Shown piece after piece: positions 38,490 to 44,719 of a DNA stretch of 44,719 nucleotides. The translations under genes were made by a program, and so were the position numbers. The stretch spans positions 1 to 44,719 of the forward strand of contig CALXKS010000030.1 of NCBI GenBank assembly GCA_944389015.1. Direction: 5' to 3'. The notes below the pieces were generated by a model. The model ran no database searches and was not told where the DNA came from. It was given only the letters and a program-made list of their open reading frames with translations. Each line of letters starts with the position of its first letter. Position 1 is the stretch's first letter. The stretch comes from an uncultured Spirochaetaceae bacterium. Its GTDB lineage: Bacteria > Spirochaetota > Spirochaetia > Sphaerochaetales > Sphaerochaetaceae.

Positions 38490-40022
38490 TTACCTCGCAT
38501 ATTCGGTGAATCTGGTCTCTCTGATGATTGTGACCTTGATCTTCCCAGGATATCTGAGCTCAGCTTCGATTCTCTCAGCTATGCCCTTTGCAATTGTCCT
38601 AGCCTGATCATCACCGATCTTCTCGCTGTTAACCATGATCCTGAGCTCACGACCAGCCTGGATAGCGAATGCATTATCCACGCCATCGAAGCTCTTTGCG
38701 ATTCCCTCAAGGGACTCAAGGCGCTTGATGTAGTTATCGAGGCTCTCCCTTCTCGCTCCCGGGCGAGCTGCGGAAATGGCATCTGCAACCTGGACGATAA
38801 CAGACTCAAGACAGCTGGGTTCAACATCGTTGTGATGCGCAAGAACACAGTTGACCACCCTTGGATCCTCTCCCAGGCGCTTAACAAGCTCTCCTCCGAT
38901 CTCTGCGTGGTTCGCTTCGCTCTCTGTCTCCGCCCCCTTTCCGATATCATGGAGAAGGCCACCGCGCTTTGCGATCTCAGGATCAGCACCGACTTCAGAT
39001 GCGATCATACCAGCAAGTATTGCAACTTCCTTGGAATGCAGAAGGACATTCTGACCATAGCTTGTCCTGAAATGAAGACGTCCCAGAGCACGGATCATCT
39101 CCGGTCCCATATTATGGATGCCGAGATCGAACACGACCTTCTCTCCCTCATCCACAATCACGCGGCCGACTTCCTTGGAAACCTTATTGACAACCTCTTC
39201 GATGCGTGCCGGGTGGATACGACCATCCTGCACAAGGCGCTCAAGAGCGACTCTGGCAATCTCCTTTCTGACAGGATCGAAACAGGAGATGACAACAGCC
39301 TCTGGAGTATCATCGATGATGATATCCACACCGGTGAGGGTCTCAAGAGTACGGATATTCCTTCCCTCACGTCCGATGATCCTTCCCTTCATCTCATCGC
39401 TTGGAAGCGATACAGATGCTGTCGTAGTCTCTCCGGATACCTCAGTAGCAAGGCGCTGGATCGATGTCACGATGATATCACGGGCAACCTTGTCAGCCTG
39501 GATCTGAGCCTCCTGCTCGATCTTGTTGACATATACCTGACCATCATGCTCAGCATCCCTCTTCATCTCCTCGATGATAAGATTCTTTGCCTCATCACGG
39601 GTCATTGATGCAACACGCTCAAGCTCTGCGCGGAGTGTCTCCATCGTCTCCTCAGCCTCTTTCTCTTTCTGGCTGAGCTCTTCATCTCTCTCTCCAAGCT
39701 GCTGCTTTATCTTCTCAAGCTCTTCCTGCCTATGATCAAGATTTTCCTCTTTCTGCAGAAGCCTTCTCTCGGATTTCTGCAGCTCAAATCGTCTCTCTCT
39801 AGCTTCCCGCTCCTGCTGCTGCTGTTCTTTCAGAAGCTTGTCACGGGTTTCAAGGAGGATTTCACGGGATTCAGCTTCAGCCTTTGATACCGCCTCTTCC
39901 GAAATCCTCTGAGCCTTCTGTTCTGCCGAAGTCAGTTTTGACTTGGCATATATCCAACGGGCAATGACGCCAATTGCAATACCTAAGCATAGACATAGGA
40001 GAGAAATCAATATTGTTGCCAT
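38490..40022 (-). CDS. rny: Ribonuclease Y
   Basis: 510 residues from the ATG at 40022, which has AGGAGG 9 nt upstream; an in-frame start at 40067 lies before that site and was rejected. Layout: N-terminal membrane helix (ATILISLLCLCLGIAIGVIA), long coiled coil (about 30-200), KH domain with GRIIGREGRNIRTLE and HD domain with LLHDIGKGAETE. RNase Y is the membrane-bound endonuclease that starts mRNA decay. Co-transcribed with ymdB; ricT in this window may encode one of its specificity factors. Confidence 0.97.
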   Translation of the reverse strand: MATILISLLCLCLGIAIGVIARWIYAKSKLTSAEQKAQRISEEAVSKAEAESREILLETRDKLLKEQQQQEREARERRFELQKSERRLLQKEENLDHRQEELEKIKQQLGERDEELSQKEKEAEETMETLRAELERVASMTRDEAKNLIIEEMKRDAEHDGQVYVNKIEQEAQIQADKVARDIIVTSIQRLATEVSGETTTASVSLPSDEMKGRIIGREGRNIRTLETLTGVDIIIDDTPEAVVISCFDPVRKEIARVALERLVQDGRIHPARIEEVVNKVSKEVGRVIVDEGEKVVFDLGIHNMGPEMIRALGRLHFRTSYGQNVLLHSKEVAILAGMIASEVGADPEIAKRGGLLHDIGKGAETESEANHAEIGGELVKRLGEDPRVVNCVLAHHNDVEPSCLESVIVQVADAISAARPGARRESLDNYIKRLESLEGIAKSFDGVDNAFAIQAGRELRIMVNSEKIGDDQARTIAKGIAERIEAELRYPGKIKVTIIRETRFTEYAR

Positions 40023-40055
40023 ATATTCATTCCTCCTCTCTGACTTAATATTCTG

Positions 40056-40084
40056 ATATTGCCCCAAACCTCTGTCACTGTCAA
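40056..40084 (-). promoter_or_regulatory. Candidate promoter of rny-ymdB
   Basis: Minus strand TTGACA (40084-40079), 17 bp, CAATAT (40061-40056); an overlapping alternative is GTGACA (40078-40073), 17 bp, CAGAAT (40055-40050). Both share a perfect or near-perfect -35 with a weak -10. Either gives a leader of 20-30 nt that includes the AGGAGG site. Confidence 0.5.
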
Positions 40085-40266
40085 TCCAATACTACCTACC
40101 AGGGGTTACCATCAACCTACAGGATGGCATATCATAAAACCATTTAGGACAGAAAACACATAAACTATACATCATTGAAGATACTACAGGAAATCCTTAT
40201 CATCCCTGCAACAATCCCGGATGCTTTATCTGAAATTGACTTATATATCTTAACAACTTCTGAAAA

Positions 40267-40328
40267 TCAGATTCCGTTTATGGTTCTCAGGGGATCATCT
40301 ATCCATATTCATCAGAGAACAAATCTGA
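40267..40328. repeat. Nested inverted repeats upstream of lipoprotein gene
   Basis: Three arm pairs nest: TCAGATT/AATCTGA (40267-40273, 40322-40328), GTTCTC/GAGAAC (40283-40288, 40315-40320) and GGAT/ATCC (40292-40295, 40301-40304). This is the main structure in the 444-bp gap between rny and the lipoprotein gene; no gene is supported there. It could be a structured RNA or a fold-back remnant. Confidence 0.35.
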
Positions 40329-40380
40329 GAATATGCGATCCGGTTTTCGACATAAATCAAACATATCGCGATATCCGCAA

Positions 40381-40409
40381 TTGATATCTGGTTCCCATTC
40401 TGATATCCT
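40381..40409 (+). promoter_or_regulatory. Promoter of the 662-residue lipoprotein gene
   Basis: Plus strand TTGATA (40381-40386, 5 of 6), 17 bp, TATCCT (40404-40409) with TG one base upstream (extended -10). The start near 40416 would place the poly-G tract at about +13 to +23 in the leader. Confidence 0.6.
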
Positions 40410-40427
40410 ATTAATGAATAACATACT

Positions 40428-40438
40428 GGGGGGGGGGG
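40428..40438 (+). repeat. Poly-G tract (11 G) in lipoprotein leader
   Basis: Eleven consecutive G in the predicted 5' leader, flanked by ATACT and TAGCCAATAT. The same flanked element, with 10 G, recurs at 43594. Homopolymer G runs near promoters of surface-protein genes vary by slippage and switch expression in Treponema pallidum. Confidence 0.85.
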
Positions 40439-40448
40439 TAGCCAATAT

Positions 40449-40461
40449 CCTCCTCTGGAGG
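40449..40461 (+). promoter_or_regulatory. Hairpin enclosing the Shine-Dalgarno
   Basis: CCTCC (40449-40453), loop TCT, GGAGG (40457-40461), followed by TTAAT and the ATG. The perfect 5-bp stem hides the entire ribosome site, so translation may depend on opening it. Confidence 0.6.
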
Positions 40462-40466
40462 TTAAT

Positions 40467-42455
40467 ATGAAAAAGATAACAGGAATCATAGCAGTTCTGC
40501 TGCTGATATTCCTCACAGCGTGCACTCAGGTCACATTCGTGAATCCTGATGACATTTTCCCAGGCTGGGAAGAGAACCAGAATGACAAGAATCAGAACCA
40601 GGATGATGCTGCAACGCTAATCAGTTATCTTCAGAGTGAAAGCTTCATGGAAAAGATCGCAGGAGATTCCACTTTAACTCTGAAGATTGAGAAAGGTGAA
40701 GAAAATTCCGATGCAGGTAAAGCTTCAAGAGCTTCCAACGATGGATATCCACTCACTGTTGAATTCATCGGCTTCACCGATTCTGCTGAGAATATAAGCA
40801 TAGAATCAGGTATCATCAGGATTGTGTTCAATGGAATCAGCAAGTCTGACGTTGCTGTCGCAATCACATCTGTTGATCTGAGCACAATAGAGCCTCTTGA
40901 ATATTCCTTATCCAGCAGAAACGGAACTTTTGAGATGAATTACACAGGTGGTACTGCAACAGGTACTATAGACGTATCAGGAGATTCATTCTCTTTCCCT
41001 TCTACTCCAACTGTATCAGCACCATCTGCTGGTATCAGGATAAAAGTAAATGGAAGCACAGTCCGCTGGAATAATGATTTCGGAGCTGAGATAACCAATG
41101 GATTCGGAGGAGGATCCGGAACAGAGCAGGATCCATACAGGATTTACACAGAAAATCAGTTTGCATACATAAGCACTCTTATCGGGAAAATGGCAGAATC
41201 CAGCGATAACTACTACTATTTTGATATCCTGGATGATCTCGATTTTGCCGACGGCATGGCATCGCCTGCTCTACCTCTCTTCAGAGGAGAACTTGATTTC
41301 AATGGCCATAGTCTCAGAGGGCTTACTGATGCAATTCTCAATGAGAATACCACAGGAGACCAGGAAAAATATGCGGGTGCAGAATATTCAGGGGATGGTG
41401 GCATAATGTGTGGATTGATTAATGATTTCCTTAACGGAGCAATCCGCAACCTTGAATACTACCCTGACGAATATGTTCCATTAAGTGTTTTTGGTAACTG
41501 GGGCGCTTCTTATTCTCTTATGCAAAGAATCAGAGGGGAAATCATTTTTGACAACGTAAATGTCTATGGATCTTTCTCTGAACTTGGAAATAACTCTTCT
41601 TTGTATATCAGCCAGGCTTTCTTGGCAGATGTAATAATGACAGAATGCGAGAATCACGCAGATTATGATATCCTCACCTATGGAGCGCCATTCCTTGGAG
41701 GATATATTGACAGCGACGCATCTCTGACAATCAGGGACTGTATCAACTATGGTGATATCACAGGAACACAGGCTGCGATATTCATCGGTAACAGCGCCGC
41801 TATAATTAGTAAGACTATTTCATCTGTTATTATCGAAGATTGTGAGAACTATGGTGTTGTAACAGGCTTTGAGTACGCAGGATACTTTGCAGCCAATGCT
41901 GGTAGCAAAAAAGTGGAAGAGTGTGAATGGTTCAGCACATCAGGTATTGCTTCTAATACAGGTAATGATGCTGACCACATAATCCTTCGTGATCAAGAGT
42001 CTGCAACTGGTGTTATTGTTACTTTGAATGACAAAAAGGCATTTGTCATAGATAATTCAAATCCGGATTATGATGCATTCCAGATTATAGGAATGACCCT
42101 TGCAAACACGTATATCAATGGAAATCCTAATGGTACAAATGGTATAACAGTTGCAACTGACATAAAGTCTGCTGCAGAAATATCTGGAAACTTCAAGAAG
42201 CTTGATATCATGGACAGCCAGAGCACATCTGCAAGTACAGGAAAAATTAACACTAGTGGATATATGAATAATGCCACAATCTCTGTTGGGAATGATGAGT
42301 ACTACTATCATGATAGTACAGAAATAAACGGAACACAGTATATAGTAGGATCTGCAGGCTCTGACTACATTGCAACTCCAACATACAGACTTTATTGCTA
42401 TGAGAATAATAATGGCATTTATATCCTGACAGGTATGATGATTATTGAAATATAA
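40467..42455 (+). CDS. Large surface lipoprotein, beta-helix/GLUG-like
   Basis: 662 residues. A lipoprotein signal peptide ends in LTAC (C19), followed by TQVTFVNPDDIFPGW and a charged Asn/Gln/Asp linker. The middle (about 100-190) looks like a beta-sandwich. After GSGTEQDPYRIYTENQFAYIS (about 213-233), the phrase that opens many GLUG or pectate-lyase-like repeat regions, come irregular short repeats such as TECENHADYDI, IRDCINYGDITG and IEDCENYGVVTG, typical of a right-handed beta-helix. Cysteines are few. Expression is likely modulated by the poly-G leader and the occluded ribosome site. Probably an exposed adhesin-like or host-interaction protein; no enzyme motif seen. Its AT-richer codons towards the end differ slightly from the housekeeping genes to the left. 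Confidence 0.85.
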   Translation: MKKITGIIAVLLLIFLTACTQVTFVNPDDIFPGWEENQNDKNQNQDDAATLISYLQSESFMEKIAGDSTLTLKIEKGEENSDAGKASRASNDGYPLTVEFIGFTDSAENISIESGIIRIVFNGISKSDVAVAITSVDLSTIEPLEYSLSSRNGTFEMNYTGGTATGTIDVSGDSFSFPSTPTVSAPSAGIRIKVNGSTVRWNNDFGAEITNGFGGGSGTEQDPYRIYTENQFAYISTLIGKMAESSDNYYYFDILDDLDFADGMASPALPLFRGELDFNGHSLRGLTDAILNENTTGDQEKYAGAEYSGDGGIMCGLINDFLNGAIRNLEYYPDEYVPLSVFGNWGASYSLMQRIRGEIIFDNVNVYGSFSELGNNSSLYISQAFLADVIMTECENHADYDILTYGAPFLGGYIDSDASLTIRDCINYGDITGTQAAIFIGNSAAIISKTISSVIIEDCENYGVVTGFEYAGYFAANAGSKKVEECEWFSTSGIASNTGNDADHIILRDQESATGVIVTLNDKKAFVIDNSNPDYDAFQIIGMTLANTYINGNPNGTNGITVATDIKSAAEISGNFKKLDIMDSQSTSASTGKINTSGYMNNATISVGNDEYYYHDSTEINGTQYIVGSAGSDYIATPTYRLYCYENNNGIYILTGMMIIEI

Positions 42456-42481
42456 TCAATCAGATATCAATAATTTCATTT

Positions 42482-42515
42482 ATGGTGATGGGAGTTCAGT
42501 CCATCACCATTTTTA
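42482..42515 (+). terminator. Rho-independent terminator of lipoprotein gene
   Basis: Perfect 10-bp arms ATGGTGATGG (42482-42491) and CCATCACCAT (42501-42510), 9-nt loop, followed by TTTTTAA. It is 27 nt after the stop. Confidence 0.95.
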
Positions 42516-42534
42516 ATACAGCAAAGTCATTTAA

Positions 42535-42565
42535 CGAAAAGGCCGGGAGCTTCTCACCTCCGGCC
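42535..42565 (-). terminator. Rho-independent terminator of second lipoprotein gene
   Basis: Minus strand GGCCGG (42565-42560) pairs with CCGGCC (42546-42541), with partial pairing of AGG/CTC above, then TTTTCG. Convergent with the previous terminator across a 20-bp gap. Confidence 0.85.
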
Positions 42566-42586
42566 GATACCTCATCCCTATTTTGA

Positions 42587-43558
42587 TTAACCATTATTTG
42601 TCAGTGGCAGAATCATGCTGAAGGGAACTGATGTAGAGTCATATCTGACAGTCCCTTCTCCGAGTGGTACAAAGTATTTTTCATAACTCAGATCAAATCC
42701 TGCACCTTTGCCAAGTGTCCATGGCAGTTCTGCCGCAACGCCATCAATCCTGATTCTGTGCCTCTCACCTGATTCTGTTGTCTGAAGAGCTCTTTCGGTA
42801 TTTGCGGTCACTTTATCAAAGTCGATATATACATCCCCTCCTGCCAGAGATCCATCATTCACAACAGAGAAATCGATTGTGAAATAGATTGTCCCACTGT
42901 AAGCATATGATGTGGACTTGAAGAGCGATGAATCCAGCTCTGAGCAATCAACAGCAAGCGTAACACTGAAATCCTCTGTGACATCCTCTTCTGCTGCCTC
43001 AAGCAGGACAGAAAGGACATTCTCTATTGCTTCCTGGGTCACACCGCCGAAATCCCTGATTTTTATAGAGTAGACATCATATGTTCCTGTTGCTTTCTGC
43101 AAAGAGGGAAGAATATTCTCATAAAGTATTCTGGCTATAATTGCTTTAGCATTCTCTATATTTAAAGTTATATTGGGTAAGTCACCAGAAATCATAGAAT
43201 CAATGTCTTCCTGAGTAATTATCCCACTATTGCACAGGAACAGAAAGGCATAAAATGCCATCTGTTCAGTTGAACCTCCACTAAGGATAGTATCAATATC
43301 AATCCCAAGATCGGCTTCAAGCTGAATCTTAGCATCCTCGATAAAGCTGTTCAGCAAAGGCTGGCCAACATCATTCGTGATCTTGCTGAAATCAAACTGA
43401 TCGATATACGCCGCAACCGCAGCAGCTGCCTCTTCTTCTGAAACCTGCTCTTCTCCGAATCCGGGAAGCATGTCTGCTGGAATATAGACATTCCTGCATG
43501 ATGTAAATGAAAAACATAAAAGCAATGCGCAGAGCATTACCATAAGGATCTTCTTCAT
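42587..43558 (-). CDS. Lipoprotein of unknown function
   Basis: 323 residues. Signal peptide with lipobox FTSC (C21). The mature N-terminus RNVYIPADMLPGFGEEQ resembles that of the large lipoprotein (TQVTFVNPDDIFPGW), so the two appear to share an anchoring segment. The first half is helical and acidic, the second half is beta-rich (SYAYSGTIYFTIDFSV, GGDVYIDFDKV) and ends in PFSMILPLTNNG. I recognise no known domain. GGAGG lies 7 nt before the ATG. A perfect TATAAT at 43622-43617 would start a leader that contains the C10 tract. Confidence 0.82.
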   Translation of the reverse strand: MKKILMVMLCALLLCFSFTSCRNVYIPADMLPGFGEEQVSEEEAAAAVAAYIDQFDFSKITNDVGQPLLNSFIEDAKIQLEADLGIDIDTILSGGSTEQMAFYAFLFLCNSGIITQEDIDSMISGDLPNITLNIENAKAIIARILYENILPSLQKATGTYDVYSIKIRDFGGVTQEAIENVLSVLLEAAEEDVTEDFSVTLAVDCSELDSSLFKSTSYAYSGTIYFTIDFSVVNDGSLAGGDVYIDFDKVTANTERALQTTESGERHRIRIDGVAAELPWTLGKGAGFDLSYEKYFVPLGEGTVRYDSTSVPFSMILPLTNNG

Positions 43559-43593
43559 GTTCAGACCTCCACTTCCGTAGTATGACGTATACC

Positions 43594-43603
43594 GGGGGGG
43601 GGG
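43594..43603 (+). repeat. Poly-G tract (10 G on plus, 10 C in the leader of the minus-strand gene)
   Basis: Ten G flanked by ATACC and TAGTCAATAT, matching the element at 40428. In the minus-strand lipoprotein leader it reads TTGACTA-C10-GGTAT. The TTGACT could also act as a -35 for CATACT or TATACG, at spacings of 20 or 13 bp, so tract length could tune a second promoter. Confidence 0.85.
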
Positions 43604-43616
43604 TAGTCAATATTTT

Positions 43617-43622
43617 ATTATA
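43617..43622 (-). promoter_or_regulatory. -10 box of the second lipoprotein gene
   Basis: Perfect TATAAT on the minus strand with a weak -35 (TTCTGA at 17 bp). The start near 43610 puts the C10 tract at about +8 to +17 of the leader. Confidence 0.45.
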
Positions 43623-43670
43623 TCCAAGTCTGAATCATTTCAGAAAAGCATAATCTGCGAAAATATGCTG

Positions 43671-43698
43671 AGAAAATGGCCCACCGGAAGTGAGCCAT
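43671..43698 (-). terminator. Rho-independent terminator of third lipoprotein gene
   Basis: Minus strand ATGGCTCAC (43698-43690) pairs with GTGGGCCAT (43684-43676) with one G-U, 5-nt loop, followed by TTTCTC. Confidence 0.85.
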
Positions 43699-43729
43699 CA
43701 TCATATAGAAAAAGTGAAGCTGTCGCTAA

Positions 43730-44485
43730 CTATTTAACGTAGTATGTCTGGGATCCATTTCCAACATTCTTGAGCTCCTCAAGACCTGCCTTTTCCCAGC
43801 CAGTAACTTTCTCTTTTTCGTTATCAACATGTTCCGTCCAGATTGCTGGAACAGTTTTGCTGATATCGCCCTTGAATCTGCAATCCGTTACATCGAGATC
43901 ACAATCAAATGATTGACCATCTTTACTATCAACAGCAAAACCACCGAATTCAACGTCACGGAGAACGGCTTCACCCTTAAGAGTAACAGCAGCGCCTCTT
44001 ACAAGCATTCCTGCATTGGAGCTGATAATCTCGATATCCTCGAGAACTATACCTGTAAGCTGATCAGTTTCAGAACCATAGGCCTTGATAGCATACTCGC
44101 CATCAGTCCAACCTTCTTCAGTATCAATACCATCAACTGTGATATTCTTGATTGCCACATTATCAGACTGGATGAGTAGAACAGCACCATACAGATTACC
44201 GTTATCATGACCTGCAGCATAACCATCACGTGAAAGCGTATATCCTTTTCCATTAAGTGTGATCTCGCCTGTGATGCTTATCTGATCCTTAAGTGGAATA
44301 TCCTTTGTAAGATAGTAATCACCATATCCTGCAGCAGCCTTTACAAGCTCATCATATGTTGAAATAGGAGTACCCTTAACGGTCCCCTCACCTTCATTCA
44401 TATCAACATAGCGCACCTGCGTACATCCAGAAACAACAACAAGAACAAGAAATGCTGCAAGAACAGCAGATAGACTTTTCCTCAT
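43730..44485 (-). CDS. Small beta-helix lipoprotein
   Basis: 251 residues. Lipobox VSGC (C21) followed by TQVRYVD, the same CTQV start as the large lipoprotein. After PISTYDELVKAAAGYGDYYLTKDI, sequence such as ITGEITLNGKGYTLSRDG, NVAIKNITVDGIDTEEGW and LTGIVLEDIEIISSNAGM repeats with a period of about 22 residues, the mark of a right-handed parallel beta-helix (pectate-lyase/NosD-like). No catalytic residues are recognised. A GGAGG site precedes the ATG by 6 nt. Unlike its neighbours, it has no poly-G tract upstream but an 8-bp inverted repeat. Function unknown; a surface location is inferred. Confidence 0.83.
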   Translation of the reverse strand: MRKSLSAVLAAFLVLVVVSGCTQVRYVDMNEGEGTVKGTPISTYDELVKAAAGYGDYYLTKDIPLKDQISITGEITLNGKGYTLSRDGYAAGHDNGNLYGAVLLIQSDNVAIKNITVDGIDTEEGWTDGEYAIKAYGSETDQLTGIVLEDIEIISSNAGMLVRGAAVTLKGEAVLRDVEFGGFAVDSKDGQSFDCDLDVTDCRFKGDISKTVPAIWTEHVDNEKEKVTGWEKAGLEELKNVGNGSQTYYVK

Positions 44486-44528
44486 CTCAATCCTCCAATT
44501 AGGAAATCAGTAACTTACTCATCCTCTC

Positions 44529-44562
44529 TGAATGCACCTCATGTCAATAAGAAATGCATTCA
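44529..44562 (-). promoter_or_regulatory. Inverted repeat over a candidate -35 of the third lipoprotein gene
   Basis: Perfect arms TGAATGCA (44529-44536) and TGCATTCA (44555-44562) flank a minus-strand TTGACA (44547-44542). No good -10 sits at 16-18 bp, so the promoter may need an activator, or the repeat may be an operator. About 44 nt separate it from the ATG. Confidence 0.45.
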
Positions 44563-44610
44563 GGCAAATAAAACATATATGAATCCCCGGCCCACCACGA
44601 GGAATGAGAC

Positions 44611-44719
44611 TTGGTCCTGAGTTTCCAAGGTATATAATTGTGATGCGGCACAAGGTCGTGCGCTTTTTGGAACGGATAAGAGTCCGGAAATAAAACTGAC
44701 ACTGGCCTTCCTTCCGGAC
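44611..44719 (+). other. Right-edge region: promoter-like sequence, hairpin with T-run, inverted repeat
   Basis: No gene is seen. Plus strand TTGGTC (44611-44616), 16 bp, TATAAT (44633-44638) points out of the window. Almost at its start site a hairpin GC-GCAC/GTGCGC (44645-44663, one bulged G) is followed by five T, so transcription might stop at once. The last bases hold GTCCGGAA (44682-44689) and TTCCGGAC (44712-44719), a perfect 8-bp inverted repeat cut by the edge. Confidence 0.35.

Follow-up and report, generated by a model that had tools for sequence, protein, structure and literature searches.

Poly-G tracts ahead of lipoprotein genes in an uncultured Spirochaetaceae bacterium as predicted slippage-prone promoter spacers

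The 44,719-nucleotide (nt) contig CALXKS010000030.1 of an uncultured Spirochaetaceae bacterium (assembly GCA_944389015.1), referred to over its full length as the window, carries two long G-runs, each lying ahead of a predicted lipoprotein gene (gene 1 on the plus strand and gene 2 on the minus strand). The question raised by this locus is whether the two runs act together or whether each serves its own gene. An earlier interpretation made from the letters alone (the sequence-only reading) proposed both, namely phase variation by slippage of each tract and trans-antisense cross-control through complementary leaders. Direct reading confirms the two poly-G elements and the lipoprotein genes downstream of them in opposite sense: in plus-strand notation, copy 1 reads ATACT-G11-TAGCCAATAT (40423-40448) and copy 2 reads ATACC-G10-TAGTCAATAT (43589-43613). 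The two G-runs are probably slippage-prone promoter spacers, which would switch each lipoprotein gene independently, and not complementary leaders; of the earlier interpretation, slippage is retained and antisense cross-control is not.

The gene 2 promoter and pairing between leaders

On the minus strand, copy 2 consists of TTGACT, a 20-nt spacer (A-C10-GGTATACGT), CATACT, and then GGAGG and ATG; that is, a homopolymer of at least eight G/C residues stands between recognizable -35 and -10 boxes. From this position, transcription is predicted to begin downstream of the C-run, leaving it untranscribed. The same promoter, TTGACTA-tract-GGTATTGGG-CATACT, is found in four loci of relatives (L025, L026, L325, and L327), where it precedes a different lipoprotein (MKKTRLGLAIV...). 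The latter exhibits no similarity to gene 2 (E 0.76) and only weak N-terminal similarity to the third predicted lipoprotein of the window (E 0.001).

This anatomy bears directly on trans-antisense cross-control, in which the gene 1 leader (G11) would pair with the gene 2 leader (C10) and each messenger RNA (mRNA) would repress the other. The complementarity on paper is real, the predicted duplex reaching -42.0 kcal/mol if both tracts are transcribed (flank-shuffled -36.1, standard deviation (SD) 3.6; 6.5% of 200 shuffles as strong), and a promoter upstream of copy 1, TTGATA-17-TATCCT, could transcribe the gene 1 tract. Most of the -42 kcal/mol, however, is the bare G:C run, and a G-run would find a partner in every C-run, which would make specificity poor. 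With the gene 2 start placed 7 nt after the -10 box, the predicted leader duplex has -21.7 kcal/mol versus -20.3 (SD 3.7) for flank-shuffled sequences, which is shuffle level; the flanks add little over the G:C run. Because the run lies between -35 and -10 boxes, which recur in relatives, and would not be transcribed, antisense pairing is unlikely. The two genes are also seldom together: a search of 48 same-genus genomes found gene 1 relatives in nine and gene 2 relatives in six, with both present only in the source genome and in G015 (weak matches). Trans-antisense pairing was rejected on promoter anatomy and the duplex controls, and we regard it as extremely unlikely.

The similarity between the two copies can be accounted for in other terms. 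Their flanks agree at 13 of 15 bases, and the copy 2 flank matches that of another tract in the genome, L006, at 12 of 15. This likeness is largely the consensus of a promoter class (TAC-Gn-TAG) together with a -35 box read backwards: the flank TAGTCAATAT is the reverse complement of the -35 box (ATATTGACTA) plus its upstream bases, and TAGTCAA contains TTGACT reversed. As to further copies of the element, a genome-wide search for G9-TAGYCAATA with up to two mismatches found no third one, while 13 tracts of at least 9 are present. A dedicated two-copy element was rejected on the grounds of these 13 tracts and the origin of the flank likeness.

A promoter class of the genus

Runs of G9 are present in all 48 same-genus genomes searched. 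A set of 90 tracts was assembled from the 13 of the source genome (G000) and all 77 listed for G001-G010, with G011-G047 lying outside it. With the tract read as G, 45/90 have a TTGACA box (up to one mismatch) whose end lies no more than 14 nt upstream, and in 39/90 the box is exact; for 7,200 positions drawn at random from these loci the corresponding values are 9.2% and 0.6%. A predicted lipoprotein start, called by a lipobox rule (a simple regular expression rather than a trained predictor), lies within 120 nt of 40/90 tracts in G orientation and 6/90 in C orientation, as against 15/1080 random positions. Such a start follows 34 of the 45 tracts with a -35-like box.

A search of ten genomes for TTGACA-N10-G6+ returned 70 matches, and none with the pattern read backwards. 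Sixty-four of these (six with identical flanks were dropped, each flank being counted once) were combined with eight sites of G008 into a set of 72, in which at least eight G residues stand between the -35 and -10 positions at 70 sites. The tracts are G6 (1), G7 (1), G8 (9), G9 (41), G10 (15), G11 (3), and G12 (2), and the distance from the end of the -35 box to the end of the tract is 16 nt in 5, 17 nt in 7, 18 nt in 10, 19 nt in 39, 20 nt in 6, 21 nt in 4, and 22 nt in 1. TA directly follows the tract in 66/72 and T occupies the sixth base in 66/72, the hexamer being mostly TAGNNT, in agreement with the three positions at which -10 boxes are best conserved. A predicted lipoprotein lies within 120 nt at 61 of the 66 sites having at least 200 nt after the tract. 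The typical layout is TTGACA-N10-G9-TAGNNT, with the run between the two boxes. The two copies are not a special complementary pair; copy 2, and probably copy 1, belong to this genus-wide predicted promoter class.

By itself, the number of G-runs is weak evidence. The window holds five overlapping 9-mers of G, whereas dinucleotide shuffling (100 replicates) gave 0.22 on average and never as many as five; across the whole genome (2.03 Mb), 13 distinct G/C runs of 9-11 compare with approximately 7.8 runs of at least 9 expected (Markov-1, window composition). Flanks and position make the case. Ten of the 13 own-genome tracts are upstream of predicted lipoprotein genes and one is inside such a gene. 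Seven (L003, L006, L008, L010, L011, L012, and L022) precede one diverged lipoprotein family, the members of which are 24-49% identical to the first; they share TTGACA-N10/11-G9..11 and a similar ribosome-binding region, with TAGCCT or TAGTCT directly after the tract in four. An eighth family-like gene has a G8 tract (L292), and other lipoproteins follow L015, L017 (copy 1, 40428), and L020 (copy 2, 43594).

The remaining own-genome tracts differ in setting. At L021 (G000:C67:73985-73993) the G9 is coding sequence for the N-terminal part of a predicted lipoprotein, near the start, and is likely a frameshifting contingency tract. L014 (G000:C10:23585-23593), which is TTGACA-7-G9-TATGCT (16 nt) ahead of an open reading frame (ORF) that by our own reading is oxidoreductase-like, is the only own-genome TTGACA spacer tract of at least 9 without a predicted lipoprotein downstream. 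The L023 tract precedes an ORF with a signal-peptide-like start. At L161, L271, L279, L291, L302, L309, L316, and others, the contig ends within tens of bases of the tract, which suggests that short-read assembly breaks at the repeated promoter/leader and that the genomes hold more copies than were counted.

Copy 2 has its run on the opposite strand, and further promoters of this C-form were located. Three with boxes placed by eye are TTGACA-20-TAGAAT (L015), TTGACT-20-GATAAT (L323), and TTGACA-19-TATACT (L324), and all those that could be so placed have 18-20 nt between -35 and -10. Since the C-form sites keep this distance, spacer length and not strand seems to be the conserved feature. A lipoprotein-like ORF with a ribosome-binding site follows six of the nine sites; the other three (L321, L322, and L326) have no ORF by the rule used. 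As a genus-wide count the C-form was rejected, its 14 rows not exceeding the 15 of the control.

In the case of copy 1, a candidate -10 box directly follows G11 (Table 1). A relative of gene 1 in G035 (L115, 58% identical) possesses TTGACA-TATACC-G9-TACTAG with the same 15-nt distance, from which we surmise that copy 1 may carry a decayed -35 box; it, too, is likely a spacer switch of this type. A consensus scan around it gave three promoter-like sites versus 1.6 expected in shuffles. It is also possible that the alternative TTGATA-17-TATCCT promoter is used, which would place G11 in the 5′ leader of gene 1. This leads to a second alternative, under which each tract would be part of a 5′ leader and affect the translation or mRNA stability of its own gene, with no pairing between genes. 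The weak -35 box adjacent to copy 1 and the canonical-looking promoter upstream would suit it, as would the ability of the gene 1 ribosome-binding site to pair with bases just upstream, beside the tract (CCTCC-TCT-GGAGG, 40449-40461; fold -6.5 kcal/mol). In the genus consensus, however, the tract is flanked by -35 and -10 boxes with a stereotyped spacing, and the G035 relative has TTGACA six bases before its G9. We consider an action in the leader unlikely.

Two further observations concern the relatives of gene 1. The sequence CCTCCTCTAGGAGG at L115 resembles the CCTCC-TCT-GGAGG of gene 1. By our own reading, a more distant relative in G047:C25 (L116) has G8 within the reading frame just past the lipobox, and in L119 and L120 the G-run is likewise part of the coding sequence, directly behind the signal peptide or lipobox; in these three the switching site seems to have moved between promoter and coding sequence.

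Tract length and a predicted spacing switch

The four loci with the copy-2-like promoter are 97-100% identical over about 930 nt, and their sole internal gap falls in the tract, which in L025, L026, L325, and L327 reads CCACCCCCC, C8, CTCCCCCCCC, and C8, giving spacers of 19, 18, 20, and 18 nt, respectively. L026 and L327 do not differ in this stretch and may belong to one assembly, so these were counted as three alleles (tract of 8, 9, or 10). Over 10.8 kilobases, L025 and L026 are 97.4% identical with three gap openings. Tract length therefore differs between close relatives with the same flanks, at a copy-2-like promoter ahead of another lipoprotein. Two G-form ortholog pairs from the same-genus genomes G000 and G009, where the length differences are between species, are near-identical beside the tract: L003 and L213 (G11 versus G9; 300-nt flanks 90% and 97% identical) and L006 and L274 (G10 versus G8; 80% and 91%). 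The L023/L209 pair (G10/G9) is weaker, with an upstream flank that aligns poorly (60%).

These comparisons bear on a third alternative, that the promoters are ordinary, that the G-runs are maintained by some other factor (protein binding or DNA shape), and that a change in their length would not switch expression. Retention of the modal 19-nt spacer, partly through the exchange of one flank base for G (N10+G9 or N9+G10), could be read in this way. In close relatives, however, tract length changes and the neighboring sequence does not, and some tracts (L021 and L116) lie inside lipoprotein reading frames, the usual sign of contingency loci; we find this alternative very unlikely. Promoter anatomy and the cross-genome comparison support the predicted slippage and phase variation of surface lipoproteins that the sequence-only reading had put forward, and slippage-driven phase variation appears well supported by comparison. 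Invariant tract lengths, which that reading regarded as incompatible with such a switch, are not what the relatives show.

Under the proposed switch, replication slippage would alter the tract by one or two bases and so bring the separation of the two boxes closer to, or farther from, the approximately 17 base pairs (bp) preferred by sigma-70 polymerase. Each lipoprotein would be turned up or down heritably and reversibly, giving mixed surface phenotypes in the population. Copy 2 at C10 (20 bp) would be weak or off. Promoters without tracts provide a calibration: the RNase Y gene (rnY) has TTGACA-17-CAATAT in the window, in L025-L029, and in L036, with related -10 boxes at 16-18 nt in the other five loci checked. 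Among 59 non-tract TTGACA sites with a start downstream, near-consensus -10 boxes are most often at 17 nt (5/14) and none is at 19-22; looser TANNNT boxes are at 17 in 3/12 (small numbers). Since the non-tract sites favor 17, the usual 19-nt state would be off-optimum, and the loss of one or two G residues would raise expression, in line with tprE/G/J (eight G or fewer permissive) and tp0126 (17 optimal) of Treponema pallidum (PMC7864442). The polymerase may equally well tolerate 19 nt across a G-run.

Several observations weigh against promoter spacers that switch by slippage. The modal assembled spacer is 19 and not 17, the 16- and 17-nt states accounting for 5/72 and 7/72 sites. Half of the larger set (45/90) is without a TTGACA-like box (up to one mismatch) nearby on the G strand, and five of the 45 boxed tracts have the box only 1 nt away, which is a different geometry. 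The best -35-like hexamer by copy 1, ATAACA, is weak, agreeing at only 4/6 positions. A mechanical promoter scan at 16-18 nt spacing did not list the gene 2 promoter, because its spacer is 20 nt. The C-form pattern is not above its control, 13 of the 15 control rows coming from one genome, and the C-form -10 boxes depend on placement by eye. The wider 300-nt flanks of both G-form pairs also hold a few gaps, and the tract is not the sole length change there. Tract lengths in metagenome-assembled genomes (MAGs) are consensus calls, in which sequencing error is possible.

On a broader scale, a single type of mutable promoter with a stereotyped layout (TTGACA-N10-G9-TAGNNT plus its mirror C-run form, 18-20 nt) may drive the surface lipoproteins of the genus, with copies in each genome before many lipoprotein genes that are unrelated or diverged. 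Each copy would be parked one or two bases off the optimum, so that populations would explore combinatorial surface coats. We give this extension slightly less than an even chance. The stereotyped spacer would make the rule relating spacing to expression testable on dozens of natural promoters.

Gene layout, known systems, and wider distribution

The source assembly is a MAG of 2.03 Mb in 83 contigs, about 83% complete. Genes 1 and 2 are convergent and meet at a terminator-like hairpin (Table 1). A G/C run of at least 9 was looked for upstream of the third lipoprotein gene within the window, and none was found. The RNase Y protein shares 98% identity with three MAG loci labelled Spirochaetaceae/Spirochaetales and 86% with Candidatus Ornithospirochaeta stercoripullorum (NCBI placement Spirochaetaceae incertae sedis). 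Pfam searches with gene 1, gene 2, and other lipoproteins (seven of seven tried) gave no family, while RNase Y run alongside did match; NCBIfam searches with four lipoproteins, including genes 1 and 2, gave none either. The predicted structure of gene 1 is of moderate confidence (mean predicted local distance difference test score (pLDDT) 70.4), and the model has no PDB match at E <= 0.001; that of gene 2 (mean pLDDT 41.9) is too poor for use. No close relatives of gene 2 were found in named genomes, and no known RNA family reached the gathering threshold in 40000-44719.

Table 1. Features of the locus in window coordinates
Feature	Position	Strand	Basis
RNase Y gene (rnY)	38490..40022		Pfam match to RNase Y
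Alternative promoter TTGATA-17-TATCCT, TG before -10	40381..40409	+	consensus scan
ATAACA, weak candidate -35 box (4/6), 15 nt before TAGCCA	40418..40423	+	inferred
G11 tract, copy 1, 28 nt upstream of gene 1 ATG	40428..40438	+	read directly
TAGCCA, candidate -10 box directly after G11	40439..40444	+	inferred; class consensus TAGNNT, last base A not T
GGAGG, ribosome-binding site of gene 1	40457..40461	+	sequence
Gene 1, predicted lipoprotein, 662 amino acids	40467..42455	+	ORF, lipobox-like N-terminus
Terminator-like hairpin between genes 1 and 2	42482..42510	+	
Gene 2, predicted lipoprotein, 323 amino acids	42587..43558	-	ORF, lipobox-like N-terminus
CATACT, predicted -10 box of gene 2 promoter	43579..43584	-	same box in L025, L026, L325, L327
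C10 tract (plus-strand G10), copy 2, inside 20-nt promoter spacer, 35 nt upstream of gene 2	43594..43603	-	read directly
TTGACT, predicted -35 box of gene 2 promoter	43605..43610	-	same box in L025, L026, L325, L327
Third predicted lipoprotein gene	43730..44485	-	ORF

Poly-G promoters have been described in other bacteria. Treponema pallidum tp0126, encoding an OmpW homolog, carries a poly-G between -35 and -10 and is transcribed best with a 17-nt spacer; in the same organism, poly-G tracts of eight or fewer are permissive at tprE/G/J, and at tprL 8 G is stronger than 10 in E. coli reporters (PMC7864442). Among clones of T. pallidum, 24 of 46 poly-G/C tracts of at least 8 varied (PMC10013896). 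In Neisseria meningitidis, porA transcription depends on the spacing between the -10 and -35 boxes, where a poly-G lies, and opc represents a poly-C form (PMC7864442).

Like the genes considered here, tp0126 is a spirochaete surface protein gene with a poly-G between the two boxes; it is a single outer-membrane protein (OMP) gene in a pathogen, whereas the window's genus has one layout before many predicted lipoproteins, a modal spacer of 19, and both strand polarities. The tprE/G/J and tprL promoters likewise have poly-G tracts of which the shorter are permissive or stronger, but their targets are putative porins/OMPs, and the tprL tract coincides in part with the -10 region and not with the spacer. 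The spacer poly-G of porA and the poly-C of opc are similar in form; they differ in phylum and in target proteins, and the opc tract spans the -35 itself. The mechanism is thus known from tp0126 and porA, and copy 2 has the predicted anatomy of such a promoter. The apparent novelty lies in the lineage, in how many copies share one layout, in the association with lipoproteins, and in the occurrence of both strand polarities. A search of one literature library found no paper joining Sphaerochaeta and phase variation, and a wider one returned T. pallidum, Neisseria, and general phase-variation papers, with none on the window's genus among the matches listed; Ornithospirochaeta occurs in three papers.

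TTGAC-N5..13-G8 is present in 24 of 28 sampled same-genus genomes versus 18 of 91 from other genera of the family; the totals are 268 genus matches versus 11 for the control (row sums, both inflated by overlaps). In a phylum-wide sample, the control has no match, and 42 of 295 genomes contain TTGACA-N7..11-G8-TA: five of the same genus (eight sampled), three of other genera of the family, 33 of other families of the class, and one outside the class, so that 41/42 lie in the window's class. Predicted lipoproteins are downstream in 9 of 20 loci fetched from this search, and the tie is clearest in the window's genus, with 4/5 there and 5/15 outside. That an uncultured genus carries so uniform, numerous, and lipoprotein-tied a version suggests an old mechanism within the class, one not confined to T. 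pallidum. The 85 sites listed outside the family but within the class are spread over 15-19 nt (the search pattern ends at 19). Another family of the class (f3; e.g., G375, G287, G283, and G218) has up to 20 TTGACA-Nx-G8+-TA sites per genome, in which the spacer is often 15-16 nt rather than 19.

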